39,874 bases of DNA from contig CALJAA010000046.1 of assembly GCA_938028465.1 (NCBI GenBank), forward strand, positions 1 to 39,874, read 5' to 3'. The position numbers and the translations under genes were made by a program. Positions 8,150 to 39,606 of this stretch are shown here, piece by piece; position 1 is the first letter of the stretch; each line of letters starts with the position of its first letter. Origin of the DNA: an uncultured Granulosicoccaceae bacterium. GTDB taxonomy: Bacteria > Pseudomonadota > Gammaproteobacteria > Granulosicoccales > Granulosicoccaceae. The notes under the pieces were generated by a model that was not told where the DNA came from, made no database searches, and worked only from the letters and a program-made list of their open reading frames with translations.

Positions 8150-8917
8150 CTACAGCTCCCGACCTTCGGCAAGGGTCAGTAGTTCGTAGCCGGTTTCGGT
8201 TACCAATACGGTGTGTTCCCATTGCGCTGAGAGGCTGCGATCACGAGTGACTACTGTCCAGCCATCAGCCAAAACTCGAGTATGCCGTTTGCCTTGGTTG
8301 ATCATCGGCTCAATTGTAAAGGTCATGCCTGCCTTAAGAGCTGGGCCTTTGCCTGGTTTGCCCACATGCAATATCTGCGGCTCTTCGTGAAACGATGAAC
8401 CGATACCGTGGCCACAATATTCTTCCACCACAGAGTAGCGCTCGCCTTCGGCATATGTCTGAATGGCATGGCCAATATCCCCAAGTGTTGCGCCCGGTTT
8501 TACCACGTTGATGCCGCGAACCATTGATTCGTAAGCAGTTTCGCATAGTCGTTGAGCATGCGGAGCCGGCTGGCCGACGTAATACATGCGACTGGTATCG
8601 CCGAAATAACCGTCCTTGATCACCGTGACGTCAATATTGACGATATCGCCCTTTTTCAGAATTTTATCGCTAGGGATGCCGTGGCATATCTGCTGGTTGA
8701 TCGAGGTACAGATCGACTTTGGGAAGCCCTTGTAGTTGAGTGGGGCCGGGATGCCTCCCTGAACGTCCACAATGTGCTGGTGGCAGATAGTGTTCAGCTC
8801 GTCTGTTGTGACGCCAGGCACCACGTGCTCCGTGATCAGATCGAGCACTTCACTGGCCATGAGGCTGGCAACGCGCATTTTGGCGATCTCTTCGGGGGTC
8901 TTAATCGAAAATTCCAT
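8150..8917 (-). CDS. map: Methionine aminopeptidase, type I
   Basis: Map removes the initiator methionine from nascent proteins. The 255-residue protein has all dinuclear-metal ligands of the type I family: D96 (NIDVT), D107 (FGDTS), H170 (CGHGIG), E203 (TIEPM) and E234 (QWEHT), plus the substrate-contacting H79 (ICHGIP). It is divergent from rpsB, the common gammaproteobacterial arrangement, and heads the minus-strand run. Its TAG stop lies directly before, and in the same frame as, the glnD coding sequence. Confidence 0.97.
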   Translation of the reverse strand: MEFSIKTPEEIAKMRVASLMASEVLDLITEHVVPGVTTDELNTICHQHIVDVQGGIPAPLNYKGFPKSICTSINQQICHGIPSDKILKKGDIVNIDVTVIKDGYFGDTSRMYYVGQPAPHAQRLCETAYESMVRGINVVKPGATLGDIGHAIQTYAEGERYSVVEEYCGHGIGSSFHEEPQILHVGKPGKGPALKAGMTFTIEPMINQGKRHTRVLADGWTVVTRDRSLSAQWEHTVLVTETGYELLTLAEGREL

Positions 8918-8981
8918 GGTTTTTACTTAGGTGAAATCAGTCGGAAACCCGCATAGTGTACCGCGCTGGCCCCGATTGTGA

Positions 8982-9152
8982 TATAAAGACGGGCTGTGTA
9001 CAGCCACTTTAGTGAGCTGTGCAATTTCACACGCGAATCAACAAGGTTCGACCGGGTGCCCTAGCTTTGTATCTTAATGAATATATTAATGATTCGGGCG
9101 GGGTCTGTCGGAGCCGGTTCGCGGAGGCCTAACCCATACAAAGGAAAACAAC
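8982..9152 (+). promoter_or_regulatory. rpsB promoter and leader region (candidate S2 autoregulatory leader)
   Basis: A TATAAA hexamer at 8982-8987 is followed by a GC-rich discriminator (GACGGGC), as in stringently controlled ribosomal promoters; no good -35 box is visible. The implied leader of about 160 nt contains small stems such as GGCTG/CAGCC (8992-9005) and CACT/AGTG nested in CAGC/GCTG (9001-9019). Gammaproteobacterial rpsB leaders are known to bind S2 and autoregulate. I infer that here from position and structure, not from a matched motif. Confidence 0.4.
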
Positions 9153-9998
9153 ATGGCTGATGTAACCATGCGCCAGATGCTAGAAGCTGGCGTGCATTTC
9201 GGGCACCAAACACGTTATTGGTCGCCAAAGATGGCACCGTATATCTATGGTGAACGCAACAATATTCATATCTTCAACCTTGAAAAGAGCCTGCCTGCGC
9301 TGAATGATGCGGCAAACTTTCTAGGTAAAATCGCGAGTAAGAACGGACGAGTACTGTTTGTTGGTACTAAGCGTGCGGCACGTGACCCAATCAAAGATGC
9401 GGCAGCAAGCTGCAACATGCCATATGTAAACCGTCGTTGGTCGGGTGGCATGATGACTAACTTCAAAACCGTTAAGGTTTCGGTTAAGCGTTTGCTTGAA
9501 CTAGAAGCGATGATGGAAGACGGCAGCATGGAACGCCTAAGCAAGAAAGAAGCACTTGGCTTGCAACGCGAACATGAAAAGCTAGAGCGTGGCATGGGCG
9601 GCATCAAGCACATGGAGCGCCTTCCAGACGCACTATTTGTAATCGATGTTGGTCACGAAAGCATTGCCATTGCAGAAGCTAAAAAGCTAGGTATTCCAGT
9701 AGTTGCCGTTGTTGATAGCAATAGCAACCCTGACGGTGTTGATTACGTTGTACCAGGTAACGATGACGCAATTCGCGCAATTCAGTTGTATGCAGGTGCT
9801 ATTGCAAAAGCGGTTGAAGATGGCAAGCGGGTTAGTAACACTGGGCATGCAGAAGAAGCTGCACCGGCTCCTGCTCCAGCAGCTGCGCCGGCTGAAGCTG
9901 CTGCAACTGATGCGACTGAAGCTGCAGAAGCTGAAGCAAAGACAGAAGCGGCGGCTGGCGAAAGCGGTGATGCCGCTAGCGAAACACCTGCTAGCTAA
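9153..9998 (+). CDS. rpsB: 30S ribosomal protein S2
   Basis: S2 binds the 16S rRNA platform and is needed to recruit S1. The core is textbook ([76 protein letters not shown]). The protein is 281 residues, about 40 longer than E. coli S2. The excess is a C-terminal tail from about residue 230 rich in Ala, Pro and Glu. Ala/Glu-rich S2 tails occur in some other bacteria; their role is not clear. GGAAAA lies just upstream of ATG 9153. It is the first gene of the rpsB-tsf pair. Confidence 0.98.
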
Positions 9999-24215: not shown

Positions 24216-25604
24216 TTAGGCCTTATTTCGTTGGCGCCTTGCTAGCCAGACGAAAGCTGCTATCCACAGTGCAGCACCGCCGCCCGACGAGCCACCAGCC
24301 GGTGAGGCTGGATCGCCTTTACCTTCACCGACTTCAGGCGCCTTGCTTTCGCTGGACTCACCCGTTGTACTGTTTTCGTTCAGCTCTTCCGTTGGTTCGG
24401 GCTGAGGTACTGGTGCTGCTAGCTCGCCATCATAGTTAACCGTGTTGTTCGAATTATCCGTATCACGGGTGTTGGATACCAATCGCGCAGAAAGCTCTGA
24501 AGGCTCCGCGCCATTGGGATTAACCAGTACCGTAAATTTGTTTTGAGTTTGCTCGGCGAGTGTGTCTCGCGTACAGCGTAGTTCTATACCGAATGCTTGA
24601 CACTCCCAGCCGCTGTTAGTGCTGATCGATATCCAATCAGCGGCATCGCCCAAGGTTGTTATTATCTGCAAATTGTTAGCGCCCATGGTGCCTAGGTTGG
24701 TTACATCGATATCGACTTCAACACCATTTTCAGTCGTGCTAACGTTAGTCGTGAGTGCTAAGTCGGTTTGGTACATCTGGTTAACGCTTTCGGCATCGCC
24801 TTCACTTAAAGCATCACGCTGACCAATCCTGACGTTGTCTGGCACCACAATTGTTTTCTGATTGTTGCCACTGAAGAAAAAGTCTCCATAGTGCATGATT
24901 GACCCGTAGTCATAAGGGCCGAGTTGCACGATTCCCGCGTTCAGCACATCAAAATTAAACGATTTTCCCTCAACGATATTGTCCCAATTAACGGTGATAA
25001 AATCGTCTCTGTCGGGGCGAGTGTGTTCATGGAACAGACCAATCGCATGACCGATCTCGTGAATGATACTGCCCGTTGTGCAATTATCCGATACCCAAAC
25101 CGCTTGCTGCTGTCCGATGCGGCCAACCCATGAAGCACAGCCTGCGCTAGGTTCAAAGTTGACATAGTCTTCATACTGCGCTGCGTTGTCATCGCTGCGC
25201 TCTACAAACTGAATACCGGTTCGGTCTTTCCAGTGTTGTATAGCTTCAATACTTCGCTGCTTAGAAACCGCAGTGATAGATTCATCGAACTGATAAGGCA
25301 CAACACCATCCGGCCAACGATCAACAAGCTGGCTCTGGCCTAGGCCACGAGTAGTGGATGTAATCCGACCATCGGCAAATACCTTACCTAAAACTATATC
25401 GCCTTGAGCAATCGCGTGGCCATTGATGACCACGTACTTAATTCCGTTCAGGACCCCAGTGGTGGGCACGTCCGATTCGCCATCAAACAACGCACCAGGC
25501 TGCCCTTCTAACGAGAACTGTTCTTGCGCATAGCCATTGGAGACCAGCGCCAAAGCGACGCACAATACGGCTGTACGAATGATTTGTGTATTTTCAGATT
25601 TCAC
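24216..25604 (-). CDS. Secreted astacin-family metalloprotease with GlyGly-CTERM-like anchor
   Basis: The 462-residue precursor has a signal peptide (AVLCVALALVSNGYA-Q) and a propeptide-like segment. The M12A catalytic domain carries the zinc signature HEIGHAIGLFHEHTRPDR and the Met-turn SIMHYG. A beta-sandwich resembling DUF11/CARDB repeats follows (ENGVEVDIDVTNLGTMGANN). After a Pro/Glu/Ser-rich linker the protein ends in GGSSGGG, a hydrophobic helix and RRQR, matching the pattern of GlyGly-CTERM tails processed by rhombosortase and linked to type II secretion. GTG 25604 was chosen because it gives an ideal signal peptide. The frame is open to 25790, with another GTG at 25652. It likely degrades extracellular protein. 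Confidence 0.85.
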   Translation of the reverse strand: MKSENTQIIRTAVLCVALALVSNGYAQEQFSLEGQPGALFDGESDVPTTGVLNGIKYVVINGHAIAQGDIVLGKVFADGRITSTTRGLGQSQLVDRWPDGVVPYQFDESITAVSKQRSIEAIQHWKDRTGIQFVERSDDNAAQYEDYVNFEPSAGCASWVGRIGQQQAVWVSDNCTTGSIIHEIGHAIGLFHEHTRPDRDDFITVNWDNIVEGKSFNFDVLNAGIVQLGPYDYGSIMHYGDFFFSGNNQKTIVVPDNVRIGQRDALSEGDAESVNQMYQTDLALTTNVSTTENGVEVDIDVTNLGTMGANNLQIITTLGDAADWISISTNSGWECQAFGIELRCTRDTLAEQTQNKFTVLVNPNGAEPSELSARLVSNTRDTDNSNNTVNYDGELAAPVPQPEPTEELNENSTTGESSESKAPEVGEGKGDPASPAGGSSGGGAALWIAAFVWLARRQRNKA

Positions 25605-25841
25605 GGATGCAATGCCACCGAATATTATTTTAATTATTGTTTTTCTCTTCACTACTGTTATCGGTCGTGTCCGTATACCTTGAGCGACCCAGCTAGCAGT
25701 TATCACTACTGCTATCGTCGCTGTGCGCGCCGTAACACATAGATATCGGGCGTTAGTCGACGATGGCTGGATCCTTGTGAAATGGTTCACATTGGCGTGG
25801 CCAACGTGCGAGAATCAAACACGGTACAGCTGGAGCGCCTA

Positions 25842-31008: not shown

Positions 31009-31070
31009 CTAGGCATATACTATGCACACAATAGCCGTAAACCTGTGACCCAAAAATTGGAGTATTGAGA

Positions 31071-32318
31071 ATGAGCAGCAGCACCCCTTGGACCGAATCC
31101 ATGCCAGATGCACAGTTTGGCGTTATGCGGGATATTATCGCAGCCCCAAGCCCGGTCGGCCTAGAGTCAGCAATGACGCTGGGTGTGCTGAAGCCATACT
31201 TCGATTCATTTATGCCAAGTAGTTGGGCGATGCATCAACATACTGGCAACGCCAGCGTGGTGTGGGATTCACATCCGGGAGACACAGAAAAATTTAGCGT
31301 TATGCTGATCGGCCATGCCGACAAAATCCGTTTGCAAGTTCGCAAGATCGGCGCAGATGGCAAAATTTGGATTAACAGCGATTCATTCCTGCCGTGCACC
31401 TTGATTGGCCATGAAGTCACGCTTTTTAGTGAAGACCCAGTCAAACCAGGTAGCTATCGTCGTTTGAATGGCGGCACGATCGAAGCGCTAGGCGCAATCC
31501 ACTTTTCAGAAGCAGGGCATCGAACAGGTGATAAAGGCATTCGCCCAACGCAGCTTTATCTTGATCTACAAGTACACGGCAAAAATAAAGCTGATCAAAT
31601 TAAACGCTTGGGTGTAAAAGCAGGTGATACCTTATTACTTGATCGCCCAATCAAACGCGGCTTTAGCCCTGATACTTTTTTTGGTGCGTATTTAGATAAC
31701 GGCTTGGGCTGTTTCGTTACTGCTGAGGTTGCAAAACTTATTGCTACGGCTGGCGGTACTCAAAACGTCAGATGTTTATTTGCTATTGCATCGCATGAAG
31801 AAATTGGTCGTTTTGGTAGCCGCGTAATAGCAGGTGTTCATAAACCAGATGCTGTGATTGCAATTGATGTGAATCATGATTATGTTGCGGCTCCTAATAT
31901 CGGTGATCGCAACATGACGCCGTTAGAGATGGGTAAGGGCTTTACCCTAACCACGGGTGCTATCGTGAGTGCCCAGCTTAATGCGCGGATCCAACAAGCT
32001 GCGCTTGATAGCAAAATACCCATGCAGCTAGACGTCAGCGGCCGAGATACCGGTACTGATGGTATGGCGGGCGTGTTGGCCAGCATTGATTGTGCGGCTA
32101 CTTCAGTGGGTTTTCCTACGCGCAACATGCACACGATATCTGAATCCGGCAATACATCTGATGTATTAGCGGCCATCCATGTCATTACCGATACCATTTT
32201 GGCAATGGATAAAGAATCTGATTTACGCAAGAATTTCCGTGAAACGCATCCGCGACTGGATAACCTTGAGGCGATAACTCATCAAGGTTTTGATAAGATC
32301 AAGGATACAGATACCTGA
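31071..32318 (+). CDS. M42-type (FrvX-like) metallopeptidase/aminoacylase
   Basis: The 415-residue cytoplasmic protein fits the M42 clan MH dinuclear hydrolases. It has a metal His in IGHADKI (H82), bridging Asp in AYLDNGLG (D209), catalytic and ligand Glu in SHEEIGRFG (E243/E244), Asp in AIDVNHD (D266) and a C-terminal His in NMHTISE. M42 enzymes are often oligomeric aminopeptidases, but relatives deacylate small molecules. ATG 31071 has GGAG eight bases upstream. A cupin gene follows after 15 bases and a 2OG oxygenase overlaps that, so it heads or is second in a compact operon. Confidence 0.82.
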   Translation: MSSSTPWTESMPDAQFGVMRDIIAAPSPVGLESAMTLGVLKPYFDSFMPSSWAMHQHTGNASVVWDSHPGDTEKFSVMLIGHADKIRLQVRKIGADGKIWINSDSFLPCTLIGHEVTLFSEDPVKPGSYRRLNGGTIEALGAIHFSEAGHRTGDKGIRPTQLYLDLQVHGKNKADQIKRLGVKAGDTLLLDRPIKRGFSPDTFFGAYLDNGLGCFVTAEVAKLIATAGGTQNVRCLFAIASHEEIGRFGSRVIAGVHKPDAVIAIDVNHDYVAAPNIGDRNMTPLEMGKGFTLTTGAIVSAQLNARIQQAALDSKIPMQLDVSGRDTGTDGMAGVLASIDCAATSVGFPTRNMHTISESGNTSDVLAAIHVITDTILAMDKESDLRKNFRETHPRLDNLEAITHQGFDKIKDTDT

Positions 32319-32333: not shown

Positions 32334-32813
32334 ATGGATAAGTATGTTGTAAAAAAAAGCGAGATTGATACTTTTCCTGGCACAGCCAAACAGCATTTTT
32401 TAAACGAAGATGCTATCCGTACTAATAAGTCGCTCGGTGATCTCACCGGGCTGACTGGCCTCGGATTTCATATTATTGAGGTGCCTGTCGGCAAGTTTTC
32501 CACTGAATACCATCTTCACTACTTTGAAGATGAATGCACCTACGTACTCTCAGGCAGCGGCACAGTAACCATCGGTAACGAGGAACACCTCGTTGAGGCC
32601 GGAGACTTTATCGGTTACCGCGCAGGTGGTGAAGCTCATACTATGCAAAATACTGGCGATGAGATGCTGCGTTGCATAGTGGTGGGGCAGCGGCTTGCAA
32701 ACGATGTCGGTGACTTTCCTAATCAGGGCAAACGCCTGTTTCGCAACCAAGGTTTGGAGTGGAACATGGTCAATATAAAATCGATTGAATATCCAAGCGG
32801 CGGCGCAAAATGA
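32334..32813 (+). CDS. Small cupin-domain protein
   Basis: The 159-residue single-domain cupin has motif 1 around YHLHYFEDECTYVLSGSG (candidate metal ligands H60, H62, E66) and motif 2 around GDFIGYRAGGEAHTMQN (H102). Small cupins can be isomerases, dioxygenases or sensors; I cannot choose between them. GAGG precedes ATG 32334. Its stop overlaps the start of the 2OG oxygenase (ATGA at 32810-32813), indicating co-translation and a likely shared pathway. Confidence 0.8.
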   Translation: MDKYVVKKSEIDTFPGTAKQHFLNEDAIRTNKSLGDLTGLTGLGFHIIEVPVGKFSTEYHLHYFEDECTYVLSGSGTVTIGNEEHLVEAGDFIGYRAGGEAHTMQNTGDEMLRCIVVGQRLANDVGDFPNQGKRLFRNQGLEWNMVNIKSIEYPSGGAK

Positions 32814-33634
32814 GCAGCTCAGGTTCAAGCAATTCAATCTCAAGCGATAATGAATTGAACAACATTGTTGATGTTGCGCAGTATCCGCTTGCTAATAGCG
32901 CGTTCAGAAAACAATGCAAAGCTATGTTGGATGAGTCTGGCGTGTTGGTGTTGCCGGGTTTTGTTCAGCCAAGCGCTATTCAACTAATTCAGCAAGAAGG
33001 CGTAACGCATCAATCACAGGCTTTTTACACCAGTAGCAAACACAACGTTTATATACAGCCTAACGATGATTCTTTAAGCGGCGATCATCCACGTAATCGA
33101 TCAATCACATCTAGCAAAGGCTGTATTACGACCGATCAAATACCAGCTGAATCCTACTTGCTTACGCTTTATAACTCAGATGAGTTTCGGCATTTTCTAT
33201 GTGCTGTGCTAGATGAGCAAGCACTTTTTGAATATGCCGATCCTTTGTCTTCAATAAATTTGCACTACGCCGCCGACGGCCAAGAGTTAGGGTGGCACTT
33301 TGATAACTCATCTTTCGCCATTACGTTGTTAATACAAAAGCCAAAAGCTGGTGGTGTGTTTGAATATGTTAAAGATGCGCGTAGCTCAGATAAAAATGAA
33401 ATGAACTATCCATTGGTTAAGCAAATACTCGATGGCGAGCATAAGCCCAGCACCTTAGAGATAGAAGAAGGCGCGCTGGTGTTGTTTCGTGGGCGTGATT
33501 CGATGCATCGCGTGACTCCAACAGAAGGAGACATCACTCGTATGCTAGTAGTATTGGCTTATAACACTAAACCGGGTATCGCCTTGTCTGAATCTGCTAG
33601 GCAGACATTTTATGGGCGTTTGGGCACCAGTTGA
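32810..33634 (+). CDS. HalD/BesD-like Fe(II)/2-oxoglutarate-dependent oxygenase
   Basis: The 274-residue protein matches the family that includes the free-amino-acid halogenases BesD/HalD and related hydroxylases. It contains GWHFDNSSFAITLLIQ, GGVFEYVKDAR, LVLFRGRDSMHRVTP and a C-terminal TFYGR. The iron triad reads H163-x-D165...H233, with R244 for 2-oxoglutarate. Halogenases of this family replace the Asp by Gly, so this copy should be a hydroxylase (family knowledge plus inference). It overlaps the cupin gene by ATGA and ends the cluster that starts with the EamA transporter or the M42 hydrolase. The substrate is probably a free amino acid or derivative. Confidence 0.82.
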   Translation: MSSSGSSNSISSDNELNNIVDVAQYPLANSAFRKQCKAMLDESGVLVLPGFVQPSAIQLIQQEGVTHQSQAFYTSSKHNVYIQPNDDSLSGDHPRNRSITSSKGCITTDQIPAESYLLTLYNSDEFRHFLCAVLDEQALFEYADPLSSINLHYAADGQELGWHFDNSSFAITLLIQKPKAGGVFEYVKDARSSDKNEMNYPLVKQILDGEHKPSTLEIEEGALVLFRGRDSMHRVTPTEGDITRMLVVLAYNTKPGIALSESARQTFYGRLGTS

Positions 33635-35104: not shown

Positions 35105-36007
35105 TTACTTCCAGTCGTGCTTCAGAGCTGCACGTAGAGCTGTGCTTGCGTCTGATCCGTCTACACCACTATCAAAAGAACTTGCTTCAAACCAAGCAAG
35201 CGTGTTCTCGCCGATGCTCTTAGTGTAACCAAGAGTAAAGCCTACTGAATCATTGTCACCAGTTACAGTACCAAGATCTACGTAAACATTGCCGTAGCTA
35301 AGGTACACGTCAAGACCTGTACGGTCATCAGCAGTTGAATCAGATGGTGCTGCCTGAGCAGTTATGTTAGCTGCAAAGCCAATAGCGCCTGAAGAACCAC
35401 TAACAGCAACACCGATAGTAGGCTCTGTGCCGTTATCAAGATCTTGCATACCTAAGCCAAGAGACATAGAGCCAACTGGGAAAGTCGCACCGATTTCAAA
35501 GCCGTCAAGCTCATTTGCTTCTGCGTCATCACCGTCGAAGTATAGTGAGATACCACCAGAACCTGCACCAAAGTTACCTGCGTAAGTTACAGCTTCAGTA
35601 CGGCCAGTGTAAGAGATACAACCGTTACAGCTGCCCCACCATGGCTGATCAACAGGACCAATTACGTTGTTGTACCAAGTGTGGTAAGCACGACCTAGAG
35701 TGATCGAGCCGAAGTCACCTTTAATACCAACGTTAGCGTGACGCATTGACGTAGCACCGTTTAGGTTTACGCCGAATTCGTATTTACCGAAGCCCGTTAG
35801 GCCGTTGGCCATTTCGGTTTCGCCTTTGAAACCCATTCGTGAAGCCCAGCTTCGTAGGTCGATAGTAGCGTCAGAATCGCCACCAGCATCAGCGTATGAA
35901 AGGCCGACACGTGCACTACCGTAAAAACCACCATCAGCTTGCGCAGTAAGCGGTACAGCGATGGTCATTGCAACTGCCGTAGCGACAGCGGTTAGTTTAA
36001 AGTTCAA
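35105..36007 (-). CDS. Gram-negative porin
   Basis: The 300-residue precursor has a signal peptide (TAVATAVAMTIAVPLTAQA-D). The 16-strand general porin pattern follows: GGFYGSARVGLSYAD, SRMGFKGETEMANGLTGFGKYEFGV, GSITLGRAYHTWYN (start of the constriction loop) and SMSLGLGMQDL. Two Cys lie in WGSCNGCISY within the presumed loop 3. The protein ends in Trp-Lys rather than a terminal aromatic residue. Its start is TTG 36007 with GGAG seven bases upstream. The gene stands alone with a terminator and a long AT-rich upstream region holding a 32-bp palindrome, so regulated expression is likely. Confidence 0.88.
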   Translation of the reverse strand: MNFKLTAVATAVAMTIAVPLTAQADGGFYGSARVGLSYADAGGDSDATIDLRSWASRMGFKGETEMANGLTGFGKYEFGVNLNGATSMRHANVGIKGDFGSITLGRAYHTWYNNVIGPVDQPWWGSCNGCISYTGRTEAVTYAGNFGAGSGGISLYFDGDDAEANELDGFEIGATFPVGSMSLGLGMQDLDNGTEPTIGVAVSGSSGAIGFAANITAQAAPSDSTADDRTGLDVYLSYGNVYVDLGTVTGDNDSVGFTLGYTKSIGENTLAWFEASSFDSGVDGSDASTALRAALKHDWK

Positions 36008-36484: not shown

Positions 36485-38905
36485 ATGAAAAGAAGTTTCG
36501 GTTCCGATAGAGCAACCGCTCAGGCGCGGTTTCTTTATAAGGCCATCAAGGCCAGCTCTATTTTGGCTTTTGCTTTTGCGTTTACCCCCTATTCGTTATT
36601 GGCTGCAGAATGTTCCGTTTCTGTTGGCGCTCCAGCGTGCTCTAGTAAAGCGGATCCAGGTTCCACTAGAGCTTCGTTTTTACCATCCCCTTATGTCACT
36701 AATCCAGTGGATGTGCTGACCGGCAATAAGTATCAGCGTTCCGATGATTATCTTGGCTTTGGCTCTCGTTTACAGTTCAGCAGACACTACAACTCCGCAG
36801 ATAGCGATGCACGCACTGTATTGGGCGCTGGGTGGCGACATAGCTATGACGTCACGCTGAAACGAGCATCACCTTCGCGTTTGTTATTGAAGCAAAGCGA
36901 TGGCCGCATTCTCGAATTCATAGCTAACGAACAATCTAACACCACTTATCATGCGCTCCATTCGGCCGATGGTTTTGTTGAAGTAGCCGACTTAAATCGA
37001 TGGAACCTCACGGACGGTAGAGTCTTATCTTTTAAGGGCTCTTTTTTGGTTGAAGTCTCTTTTCCGGATAGCCGCAGTTTAAGACTTAAATATAAAAATA
37101 ACCGGCTCGATAGTGTCACTGATCATTTTGATCGATCAATAAAGCTTGAGTACTATTCGGGCGAGCAAACACTAGGTAGTTACGACGAAACACTCAATGG
37201 TAGGAGTGCTGGCGATCTGCAATATTTAGTGTTGCCAGATGGAAGCCGTGTTAATTACCAATACGACAATCTGCAAAACCTGACCTCTGTAGGTTATCCC
37301 GAAGGCACGCAGTCCATCTACGAGTATAAAGACTCAGACTTTACCCATCACTTAACAGGCGCAAGCGAAGCGCTGGAATCAACTCAAAAGTTCTGGAAGT
37401 ACGATCATTACGGCCGTGCCATCCAACATACCAACGAGGCGGCAGAGTTTGTTGTTGATATCGAGTTTGCGCCAATAAGTGATCAACAAACCGAACAGCG
37501 CACACGAGTGAAAACAAGTGATGGCTGGAAAGCTGATTATGGCTGGCAACACAGTAACGAAATAAACCTCCCCATTGTTACTGACTATCAAGAGCAAGCA
37601 TGCCCAACGTGCAAACCCACTCAAAAACGCATTACTGAACAGTCGATTGTTGATTGGAAACCGCCGCCAGCCGAGACGAAGCCGGCAGTGCAGAAAAAAT
37701 CTGCACAGCAAACCTCAGCGCCTGAAAAAGTAGAAGAGCCGATTCAGTTTGTTGCAACTGATGGCTCCCTTGGTGGAATGGTGACGATGCGAAGTGCCGC
37801 TGGTGGTGGAGGCGCGGCAGAGAAATATCAGGTGACAGTTGATCGTATTGGGAAGGTGCGTGATGTTTCTGATGGGGTGGATTCTTTATCGGAGGTTAAA
37901 GTGAAACTTCAAAAATCATCTGTGCTAAACCCGCGATTACAACGTAGCTCTTTTCAAGGGTGCAGTGGTCTTAACTGTACCCAGAAAGCACATAAGTTAT
38001 TCGATGTTTCTAAATCAGCAAGAAAGAGTTTCAGCAACCACTTTATAAACAATCCTCACAATCCAACCAATGAAGTAGTTAATAATCGTTTTTGTGCTGG
38101 ACCTGTTCATCGTAATTGTGATCAGCTGAGACATGAATATAAACTGGCTCAGTTATCAAATTGTGTGTATGAAGAGAGTGGTAATGATGACAAGTGCGGA
38201 AACGGTTATAGGAAGGTTAGGCCTAAAAAATTTGGGTTAACACCAGATCTATTTGAAAGCAAGGGGTTTAAGGCTGCGCTGTATAGAAATCGAGATGGGA
38301 AGATGGTTTTGGCGTTTAGAGGGACTAGAGGCGGTTTGGTTAGCGTGGTAGATTGGAAGAATAACATTACTCAAGGTAAAGGAAACTCGTCTAAGTATTA
38401 TGAGCAAGCGAAAGTGCTCGTGCGGGCTTTAACTAGGGCAGGAGCTGTTTTTGAAGTAACTGGCCATTCGCTTGGTGGCGGTCTTGCTGGTGCGGCGGCG
38501 CTAGATTCTCCCGTTCGTGCCACTGTTTTTAATGCCGCATCGGTTCATCCCAATTCAGTTAGAGACTATTGGAAAAAAGTGGAACAAGCAGACAACTACA
38601 TCGTCTCTTATACTGTTGATGGCGATTTGCTTTCCCATTTGCAAGATACAGCTTCGCCAGATCATGCTGCCACGAAAGATAAGAATGATCTGGAACGCAC
38701 AACTTTGGCGGCGGTTGGACAGCGGATTGTTTTGAACCCACCTGGCAAAGCTTGGTTGGAACCGCGTCTACCAACAGTTTCATCACCTAAAGATACCGAA
38801 AAAATTTTGTATAAAGCTAAGCTAGGTATAGAGTTGCATTCTATGGACGCAATACTTGAATCATTGAAAACACGGGTGATTGCAAAATGCAAATCGTTAA
38901 TATAG
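36485..38905 (+). CDS. Exported mini-RHS protein with C-terminal lipase domain (candidate toxin)
   Basis: The 806-residue protein has a Sec signal peptide (hydrophobic SSILAFAFAFTPYSLLA, cleavage near residue 41). A DUF6531-type RHS N-terminal domain follows (NPVDVLTGNKYQRSDDYLGF, about 72-190), then only a few YD-like repeats (about 200-330), and a Pro/Ala/Lys linker (about 390-420). The C-terminal lipase class 3-like domain (about 545-800) has LAFRGTRGG, nucleophile elbow GHSLGGG (S662), probable acid D714 in VDGDLLSH and His785 in ELHSMDAI. The DPxG-type RHS cleavage core is absent. Phospholipase activity is inferred. The following gene encodes a periplasmic ankyrin protein, the layout of lipase effector-immunity pairs. 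AGA/AGG arginine codons are frequent in the C-terminal part. Confidence 0.82.
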   Translation: MKRSFGSDRATAQARFLYKAIKASSILAFAFAFTPYSLLAAECSVSVGAPACSSKADPGSTRASFLPSPYVTNPVDVLTGNKYQRSDDYLGFGSRLQFSRHYNSADSDARTVLGAGWRHSYDVTLKRASPSRLLLKQSDGRILEFIANEQSNTTYHALHSADGFVEVADLNRWNLTDGRVLSFKGSFLVEVSFPDSRSLRLKYKNNRLDSVTDHFDRSIKLEYYSGEQTLGSYDETLNGRSAGDLQYLVLPDGSRVNYQYDNLQNLTSVGYPEGTQSIYEYKDSDFTHHLTGASEALESTQKFWKYDHYGRAIQHTNEAAEFVVDIEFAPISDQQTEQRTRVKTSDGWKADYGWQHSNEINLPIVTDYQEQACPTCKPTQKRITEQSIVDWKPPPAETKPAVQKKSAQQTSAPEKVEEPIQFVATDGSLGGMVTMRSAAGGGGAAEKYQVTVDRIGKVRDVSDGVDSLSEVKVKLQKSSVLNPRLQRSSFQGCSGLNCTQKAHKLFDVSKSARKSFSNHFINNPHNPTNEVVNNRFCAGPVHRNCDQLRHEYKLAQLSNCVYEESGNDDKCGNGYRKVRPKKFGLTPDLFESKGFKAALYRNRDGKMVLAFRGTRGGLVSVVDWKNNITQGKGNSSKYYEQAKVLVRALTRAGAVFEVTGHSLGGGLAGAAALDSPVRATVFNAASVHPNSVRDYWKKVEQADNYIVSYTVDGDLLSHLQDTASPDHAATKDKNDLERTTLAAVGQRIVLNPPGKAWLEPRLPTVSSPKDTEKILYKAKLGIELHSMDAILESLKTRVIAKCKSLI

Positions 38906-38916
38906 GAAGCGTGAGA

Positions 38917-39606
38917 ATGTCGGTTAATACGATCTGTATTTCAATGGTGCTATTAATAGGTATTTGGTCTTGGGGTAGCGTATCTGCTCAGACCGATACC
39001 CATAAACAAGTTCTAGAGAGTATTGTTGAAAATGATTTCAAATCCTTTAGGAGAATTCTTGATCGAGGTTATAATGTTAATAGCCTCGATGCCGTAGAAT
39101 ATTGGGATTGGTTGATGTGCGAAGTTACACAGCGTGATCGAATAAAATTCTTAAAATATGCGATAAAGTCTGGTGGCGACATTAATACAATTAAGCCAAA
39201 AATTTCTCAAACGCACTCGGCCCCATTGATGTGTGCAATTTATTATGGAAATAAGGAAGCTTTTGACTATTTATTGGCTCAAGGTGCGAATCCAAATATT
39301 GTGGTTTGCCCGGAATGCGAATTGAAGTTTCGATATCTACCGTTTCGGGAAGCATTAGTTGGTGATCACTATGAAATGGCTCATGAACTTCTTGCTGTAA
39401 CTGTTGTGACGGAGCAAGAGTTGGAAGATATTCGGTTTATGTTAGAAGATAATCGTTACTTGCCCAATCCAGAGGAGTCGGAAGAAGAGTATCGATTGAA
39501 GTTTGCGGATTACATGGAAAGTAAAGGCTTTGAGCTAAATATCTGGACGCCGGAAAAAGAGAACTCCGGTGAATGGCTTCCCCCTTTTCTGCGTGAAGAG
39601 AAGTAA
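38917..39606 (+). CDS. Periplasmic ankyrin-repeat protein (candidate immunity protein)
   Basis: The 229-residue precursor has a signal peptide (CISMVLLIGIWSWGSVSA-Q). Helical repeats match the ankyrin pattern: VLESIVENDFKSFRRILDRGYNVN (about 32-55), FLKYAIKSGGDIN (about 68-80) and APLMCAIYYGNKEAFDYLLAQGANPN (about 102-127). An acidic C-terminus follows. Ankyrin proteins in the periplasm commonly protect against lipase effectors, and this gene directly follows one. ATG 38917 was chosen because AGGAAG lies seven bases upstream; ATG 38887 is in frame but would extend ahead of the signal peptide. The ribosome-binding site overlaps the toxin stop codon, so translation is probably coupled. Confidence 0.8.
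   Translation: MSVNTICISMVLLIGIWSWGSVSAQTDTHKQVLESIVENDFKSFRRILDRGYNVNSLDAVEYWDWLMCEVTQRDRIKFLKYAIKSGGDINTIKPKISQTHSAPLMCAIYYGNKEAFDYLLAQGANPNIVVCPECELKFRYLPFREALVGDHYEMAHELLAVTVVTEQELEDIRFMLEDNRYLPNPEESEEEYRLKFADYMESKGFELNIWTPEKENSGEWLPPFLREEK

Follow-up and report, generated by a model that had tools for sequence, protein, structure and literature searches.

Our analysis suggests that two adjacent genes of an uncultured Granulosicoccaceae bacterium probably form an antibacterial toxin-immunity unit, in which a Sec-exported, disulfide-locked lipase of the Tle type, carried on a short RHS segment, would be captured by a periplasmic ankyrin antidote. The genes lie in a stretch of 39,874 nucleotides (the window), which is contig CALJAA010000046.1 (C46) of a 4.1 Mb marine-bacterium genome (GCA_938028465.1; 223 contigs, 88.8% complete). 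Inference from their sequences gives good support to an effector-immunity pair, and the best reading, by analogy, is that the pair would work like Tle-Tli of Enterobacter cloacae. The original prediction, made from the DNA alone, had proposed such a pair, and both open reading frames (ORFs) are found exactly where it placed them, on the same strand, with the following features.

36485-38905 (+): RHS-lipase gene, 806 aa (ORF list, Pfam, homologue search)
36485-36610 (+): signal-peptide-like N-terminus, residues 1-42, the first conserved Cys being residue 43 (hydropathy, alignment)
36611-37624 (+): RHS part, residues 43-380, with DUF6531 at 73-145 and RHS repeats (Pfam, alignment, structure match)
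37625-38092 (+): linker, residues 381-536, mostly of low model confidence (pLDDT)
38093-38902 (+): Tle-like lipase domain, residues 537-806 (PDB sequence/profile and structure matches)
38117-38119 (+): codon of Cys545, at the start of predicted helix 545-560 (alignment, model)
38468-38470 (+): codon of catalytic Ser662, in GHSLGGG (motif, alignment)
38624-38626 (+): codon of Asp714, the triad acid (alignment)
38837-38839 (+): codon of catalytic His785 (alignment)
38888-38890 (+): codon of Cys802, at the end of predicted C-terminal helix 787-802 (alignment, model)
38887-39606 (+): ankyrin gene, 239 aa, probable immunity protein; alternative ATG at 38917 (ORF list, Pfam, fold)
38917-38988 (+): signal-like segment of the ankyrin protein, should translation start at residue 11, ending in SVSA (sequence, hydropathy)
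39031-39300 (+): ankyrin repeats, residues 49-138 (Ank_2, ankyrin fold)

Domains of the two proteins

The lipase assignment follows from a match to PDB 7ubz, a "T6SS lipase effector" (type VI secretion system), with E 1.1e-16 for the single sequence and E 1.3e-26 for a profile. Two of the domains that the original prediction had named exceed their Pfam cut-offs, DUF6531 in the lipase protein (E 6.8e-16) and Ank_2 in its neighbour (E 4.8e-7), whereas the third, Lipase_3 (E 0.01), stays below, as do Mbeg1-like (E 4.8e-4) and, slightly, RHS_repeat (residues 249-275, E 2.6e-4). The catalytic residues had been correctly identified: among 21 aligned relatives, window protein included, Ser662 is kept in 21/21, an Asp or Glu at position 714 in 20/20 and His785 in 20/20, one row being cut by a contig end. 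The RHS part amounts to roughly one third of a complete shell (346 residues align to an Rhs core of 1021), so that by structural comparison the window protein lacks the full-length shell of Sec-dependent RHS toxins. Its cysteines C43 and C52 are conserved, and a CxxC at 373/376 is present in 15 of the 21 rows. The Pfam scan of the window lipase protein found neither a PAAR nor a VgrG domain.

The ORF of the ankyrin protein overlaps that of the lipase by 19 bp if it starts at 38887; a start at ATG 38917 removes the overlap and leaves a shorter signal peptide. A Pfam scan of this protein at E up to 1 returned four ankyrin models, a weak PYRIN hit and nothing else, hence no lipase chaperone (Lif-type foldase) domain. 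All 18 homologues in its alignment (A3) have a hydrophobic segment within the first 60 residues, as judged, like all signals reported here, by hydropathy only; two of the 18 show a strict lipobox. Its PDB matches, whether by sequence or by fold, consist mostly of other ankyrins and of designed repeat proteins, which are uninformative on the partner; the Tli entry is not among the matches listed in the fold searches, which excludes nothing. A peptide-pattern scan of GTDB genomes found no relatives of the protein, and the genome profile and neighbour searches did find them. Two of its cysteines, C78 and C116 (numbered as in the window protein), are invariant in 18/18 homologues. We considered a disulfide between them and make no such claim, because the two sites appear to occupy equivalent places in successive ankyrin repeats, which makes buried thiols just as likely.

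The closest characterised relative is Tle-Tli (PDB 7UBZ/9CYS), a phospholipase with an exported ankyrin antidote, in which Tli is also required to activate Tle. The window pair shares with this system, the proposed group Tle6, a homologous lipase core with a Ser-acid-His triad and an adjacent gene for an ankyrin protein with an export signal. The two systems also differ. Tle is injected from the cytosol by the T6SS, whereas the window lipase has a Sec-type N-terminus and a short RHS carrier; and Tle has an Arg180-Lys461 crosslink, whereas the window lipase has conserved cysteines and no Lys at the place of 461. Two further marks of Tle6, delivery by a type VI system and the glycation pair, were looked for and not found, and we therefore do not file the window pair under that group.

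Linkage of the two genes

Searches at the levels of family and order covered the same 48 genomes and gave an RHS-lipase match somewhere in 30 of them, from which 29 regions were retrieved. The top 21 of the 36 lipase matches, found in 17 genomes, are RHS-lipase genes with an intact 3' end and are the ones counted here; the other 15 are cut by contig ends (four: G032, G024:C199, G005 and G022), short (two: G006 and G015) or weaker (nine). A same-strand ankyrin homologue lies downstream of 17 of the 21 genes, with a gap of -47 to +32 bp. Among these 17 pairs, the ankyrin gene of G003 is represented by 95 residues next to a contig end, and the lipase of G045:C1 is split in two frames. Beyond the 21, an ankyrin gene adjoins the contig-cut lipases of G032 and G005. 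Locus L041 shows an RHS-lipase followed by two ankyrin genes (8322-8990 and 9269-9769), the second of which is short and has a profile match that crosses a stop.

Outside the family, an ankyrin-profile match lies within 2 kb downstream of 50 of 79 lipase ORFs, upstream alone of 17, and nowhere near 12. These homologues were drawn from the best 80 of 355 loci, and the count has no random-gene control, uses a profile (A3) that also matches other ankyrins, and includes related rows, for which reason Fisher values are too confident. Of 369 genomes sampled at class level, 14 had a match with E no higher than 1e-15; strong matches over nearly the full domain were confined to the genome of the window and to G027, the other 12 being weaker (best E 1.1e-28).

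A shared N-terminus, variable C-termini and probable export

Other genes of the family share the hydrophobic start and the DUF6531-type N-terminus, reach 1497-1807 residues and differ at the C-terminus. A signal peptide followed by DUF6531/RHS, and a common N-terminus carrying differing C-terminal toxin domains, are both features of Sec-dependent RHS toxins. Ten C-termini were scanned: one has Tox-REase-7 (a good match), one CDI_toxin_EC869_like (at the cut-off), three have RHS alone and five have no match. Nine of the loci (L162-L168, L170, L171) encode long RHS proteins with mostly unnamed C-termini and often a small gene directly downstream. The window pair itself has diverged from its nearest relative, G032, most strongly outside the RHS part, with identities of 83% for the latter, 55% for the lipase and 54% for the ankyrin protein. 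The G+C content of the window ankyrin gene is below that of all 707 overlapping same-length segments before position 36000, and that of the lipase segment is equalled or undercut in 21 of 704.

The lipase had been predicted to have its own Sec signal and no secretion genes nearby; hydropathy and the Pfam scan of 24 window ORFs agree with both. A hydrophobic segment precedes the first conserved Cys in 21/21 aligned lipases, and the 24 Pfam-scanned ORFs of the window, the pair included, contain no type III, IV or VI secretion families. The type VI sheath protein TssC occurs in 9 of the 48 family genomes. It is present in 3 of the 17 genomes that carry the 21 lipase genes and absent from the other 14, which include the genome of the window (88.8% complete), G020, which is a single contig, and G027, at 100% completeness. 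For type II secretion, the pseudopilin GspG was taken as marker; 47 of the 48 genomes have it, including that of the window, as do 16 of the 17 carriers. Given the signal-like starts, the general lack of TssC and the near universality of GspG, we infer that type II export or retention at the surface is the likeliest route.

The suggestion that this route may be new was not borne out. Sec- and type II-dependent RHS polymorphic toxins were catalogued earlier (PMC3482391), the RHS bacteriocin Bcn-A of Xanthomonas perforans was no longer active once type II secretion had been disrupted by mutation (PMC7259588), and the Myxococcus toxins Rhs4/5, which have signal sequences, work without a T6SS (PMC10433427). 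The delivery class is therefore already known and not new in kind. The window pair resembles such toxins by joining RHS to a variable C-terminal toxin, by a signal peptide or T6SS-independent export, and by an immunity gene in the locus; it is unlike them in its RHS of about 330 residues without a full shell, in having a lipase as toxin and in exporting the antidote. The available part of PMC3482391 pairs Imm-ank with nuclease and deaminase toxins and places a lipase-like toxin mostly with T6SS modules. Among the papers listed, titles and abstract openings revealed no Sec-exported RHS lipase with an ankyrin antidote, which does not establish its absence from print.

Conserved cysteines and the glycation crosslink

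Tle is inactive until methylglyoxal joins Arg180, on its first helix, to Lys461, on its last (PMC11470151). An engineered disulfide between these helices restored activity in vitro and gave no inhibition of target cells in co-culture, and Jensen et al. (2024) proposed that a sugar-derived crosslink is used because the reducing cytosol bars a natural disulfide (PMC11470151). The window lipase lacks the Arg180-Lys461 pair. A Lys 13 residues past the catalytic His occurs in 1/20 Granulosicoccaceae rows (L032), and an R-x-x-x-R at the distance of Arg180 in 2/20, the window protein being in neither set; the structural alignment of its model with Tle begins at Tle 197, past Arg180. Instead, all 20 readable Granulosicoccaceae lipases have a Cys 17 or 18 residues past the His, and C545 is present in 21/21. 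C545 begins one predicted helix (545-560) and C802 ends another (787-802); as judged from the alignment range, C802 itself corresponds to about Tle 465, roughly one helical turn beyond Lys461. The lack of the Arg-Lys pair, together with invariant cysteines near both ends of the domain, suggests for the exported branch a natural disulfide in the role of the glycation lock.

From outside the family, 76 other homologues were compared, excluding two ORFs that lack an exact GHSLGG and a third with an unaligned His. A Lys at His+13 is found in 22 of them, of which 20 also have a Glu at +10. Among the 19 of these 20 that are readable upstream, R-x-x-x-R lies 14-30 residues before the C545 place, the region of Arg180 in Tle, in 17 and, by eye, slightly further upstream in the remaining two; the same motif is found in 0/37 readable other homologues. 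This joint occurrence of Lys461-type and Arg180-type residues suggests that only some members of the wider lipase-ankyrin family may form the glycation crosslink.

The pair C545 and C802 is present in 1/76 other homologues, a distant lipase of Acidiphilium rubrum with no further Cys in its lipase domain. It lies near what we take to be a VgrG gene. That locus (L090, 5137-8598) is a tandem arrangement in which a lipase and an ankyrin gene are followed by another lipase-like fragment and another ankyrin gene, and the C-termini of both lipases end in a Cys 18 residues past the His. We also considered a C560-C802 pairing, by analogy with fungal lipases, whose cysteines may however sit elsewhere; the A. 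rubrum pattern makes C545 the likelier partner. Fungal class 3 lipases, such as that of Rhizomucor miehei, are secreted enzymes that are not known to have an RHS part or an ankyrin partner.

Weighing the explanations

Starting from what the sequences themselves provide, namely kinship to Tle with its triad, a signal-like N-terminus, RHS and a linked ankyrin gene, the following course of events can be proposed. In a Granulosicoccus-like host, a Tle-type phospholipase on a short RHS segment would be exported by Sec. Because it would cross the inner membrane and fold in the oxidising periplasm, its lipase domain could be locked by disulfides, from an N-terminal Cys (most likely C545) to C802 on the last helix, which would stand in for the methylglyoxal Arg-Lys crosslink that Tle gains in the cytosol. 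The periplasmic ankyrin protein would bind up the lipase in the way that Tli captures Tle, thereby protecting the producer and its siblings. The toxin would then leave the cell, most likely via the type II secretion system, or be retained at the surface, and the released or surface toxin would hydrolyse phospholipids of neighbouring cells.

Several observations weigh against this proposal or some of its parts. The lipases of G028, G033, G039 and G040 are without an ankyrin neighbour, and a profile search of these whole genomes at E up to 1e-15 found no match; under E 0.1, tblastn gives a single, weak match at their loci (E 0.002), 5.6 kb off in L027. These four RHS-lipases (L025, L026, L027, L028) keep the full triad and the conserved cysteines, and they cluster in the tree with modest support (88/72). 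Nor is an ankyrin gene recognised for the short stand-alone lipases L049 and L051, and 8 of 22 lipase-carrying genomes lack an ankyrin match, partly owing to contig breaks. Seven of ten scanned neighbours have a Pfam ankyrin match at E up to 0.01; those of L041, L045 and L043 have none and are tied to the ankyrin family solely by profile and phmmer. Of the two C-termini that match a named toxin domain, just one lies clearly above its Pfam cut-off. Fast divergence of the toxin is not general, since the lipase is less conserved than RHS in 2/8 other pairs (L034/L042, and L035/L043 by less than 1%). The type II system, being near universal, says little about the route. The lipase domain contains five conserved cysteines, C545 and C802 among them, which would allow more than one pairing. 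Finally, cysteines and export are not strictly linked, because the A. rubrum lipase has the pair without a clear signal peptide, and the exported-looking homologues L101, L177 and L179 do not have it. The original prediction, which made no mention of the cysteine pattern, is supported in part: its effector-immunity claim withstands the check on co-occurrence in relatives that was set for it and is favoured by kinship to Tle-Tli, and the four lipases without an ankyrin gene speak against it.

Other explanations have to be considered. The ankyrin protein could serve mainly as a dedicated foldase of the periplasm, in the manner of Lif foldases, that helps an exported lipase with a digestive function to fold, in which case the pair would be nutritional and no weapon. 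This explanation fits the gene order, with the lipase ahead of its partner, the signal-like starts of both, the type II system found in nearly all genomes and the need for Tli in the activation of Tle. We nevertheless find it unlikely: the ankyrin protein has no lipase-chaperone match, the four lipases without a partner imply that it is not always needed, the shared N-terminus bears nuclease-like toxin domains elsewhere, and the low G+C content and the divergence from G032 resemble a toxin cassette. The lipase might also stay on or act on the envelope of its own producer or on the surface of a eukaryotic host, with the ankyrin protein limiting self-damage and no bacterial rival involved. Its own signal-like N-terminus, the lack of injection genes among the scanned window ORFs and of TssC in the genome, and an RHS part too short for a full shell are compatible with such a role, which the differing C-termini on the same N-terminus and the homology to an antibacterial effector-antidote pair make quite improbable. 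That the lipase is a type VI effector like Tle, its hydrophobic N-terminus being no working signal peptide, draws on its relatedness to Tle and to lipases linked with PAAR or VgrG, and on TssC in three carriers, and is very hard to reconcile with that N-terminus in every aligned relative, the lack of PAAR and VgrG domains, the 14 carriers without TssC and the conserved cysteines.

Other genes in the window

A 274-aa protein encoded at 32810-33631 (+) matches Pfam Halogenase D over the cut-off (E 2.3e-19) and is possibly a free amino-acid halogenase; its gene stands in a row with those of an M42 peptidase (31065-32318) and a cupin (32334-32813). An astacin metalloprotease with a DUF11 domain, probably an exported enzyme, is encoded at 24216-25790 (-).

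Significance

Related lipases elsewhere are carried on PAAR, VgrG or full Rhs proteins. If the pair is a toxin-antidote module, as we favour, one such module would thus be found on differing delivery parts, here a short Sec-exported RHS segment. What may be new here is the suggested exchange of glycation for a disulfide, whose absence from print is not established. It is conceivable, if somewhat less likely than not, that the move of a Tle-type lipase from the cytosol-loaded type VI route to Sec export exchanged the glycation crosslink for an invariant C802-C545 disulfide, freeing activation from the antidote and leaving to the latter neutralisation only. Antidote-free activation, if true, would explain how the branch of G028, G033, G039 and G040 does without an ankyrin gene. 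With folding expected outside the cytosol, no crosslink residues and invariant cysteines towards both ends of the domain, the exported branch may provide a natural experiment for the idea of Jensen et al.

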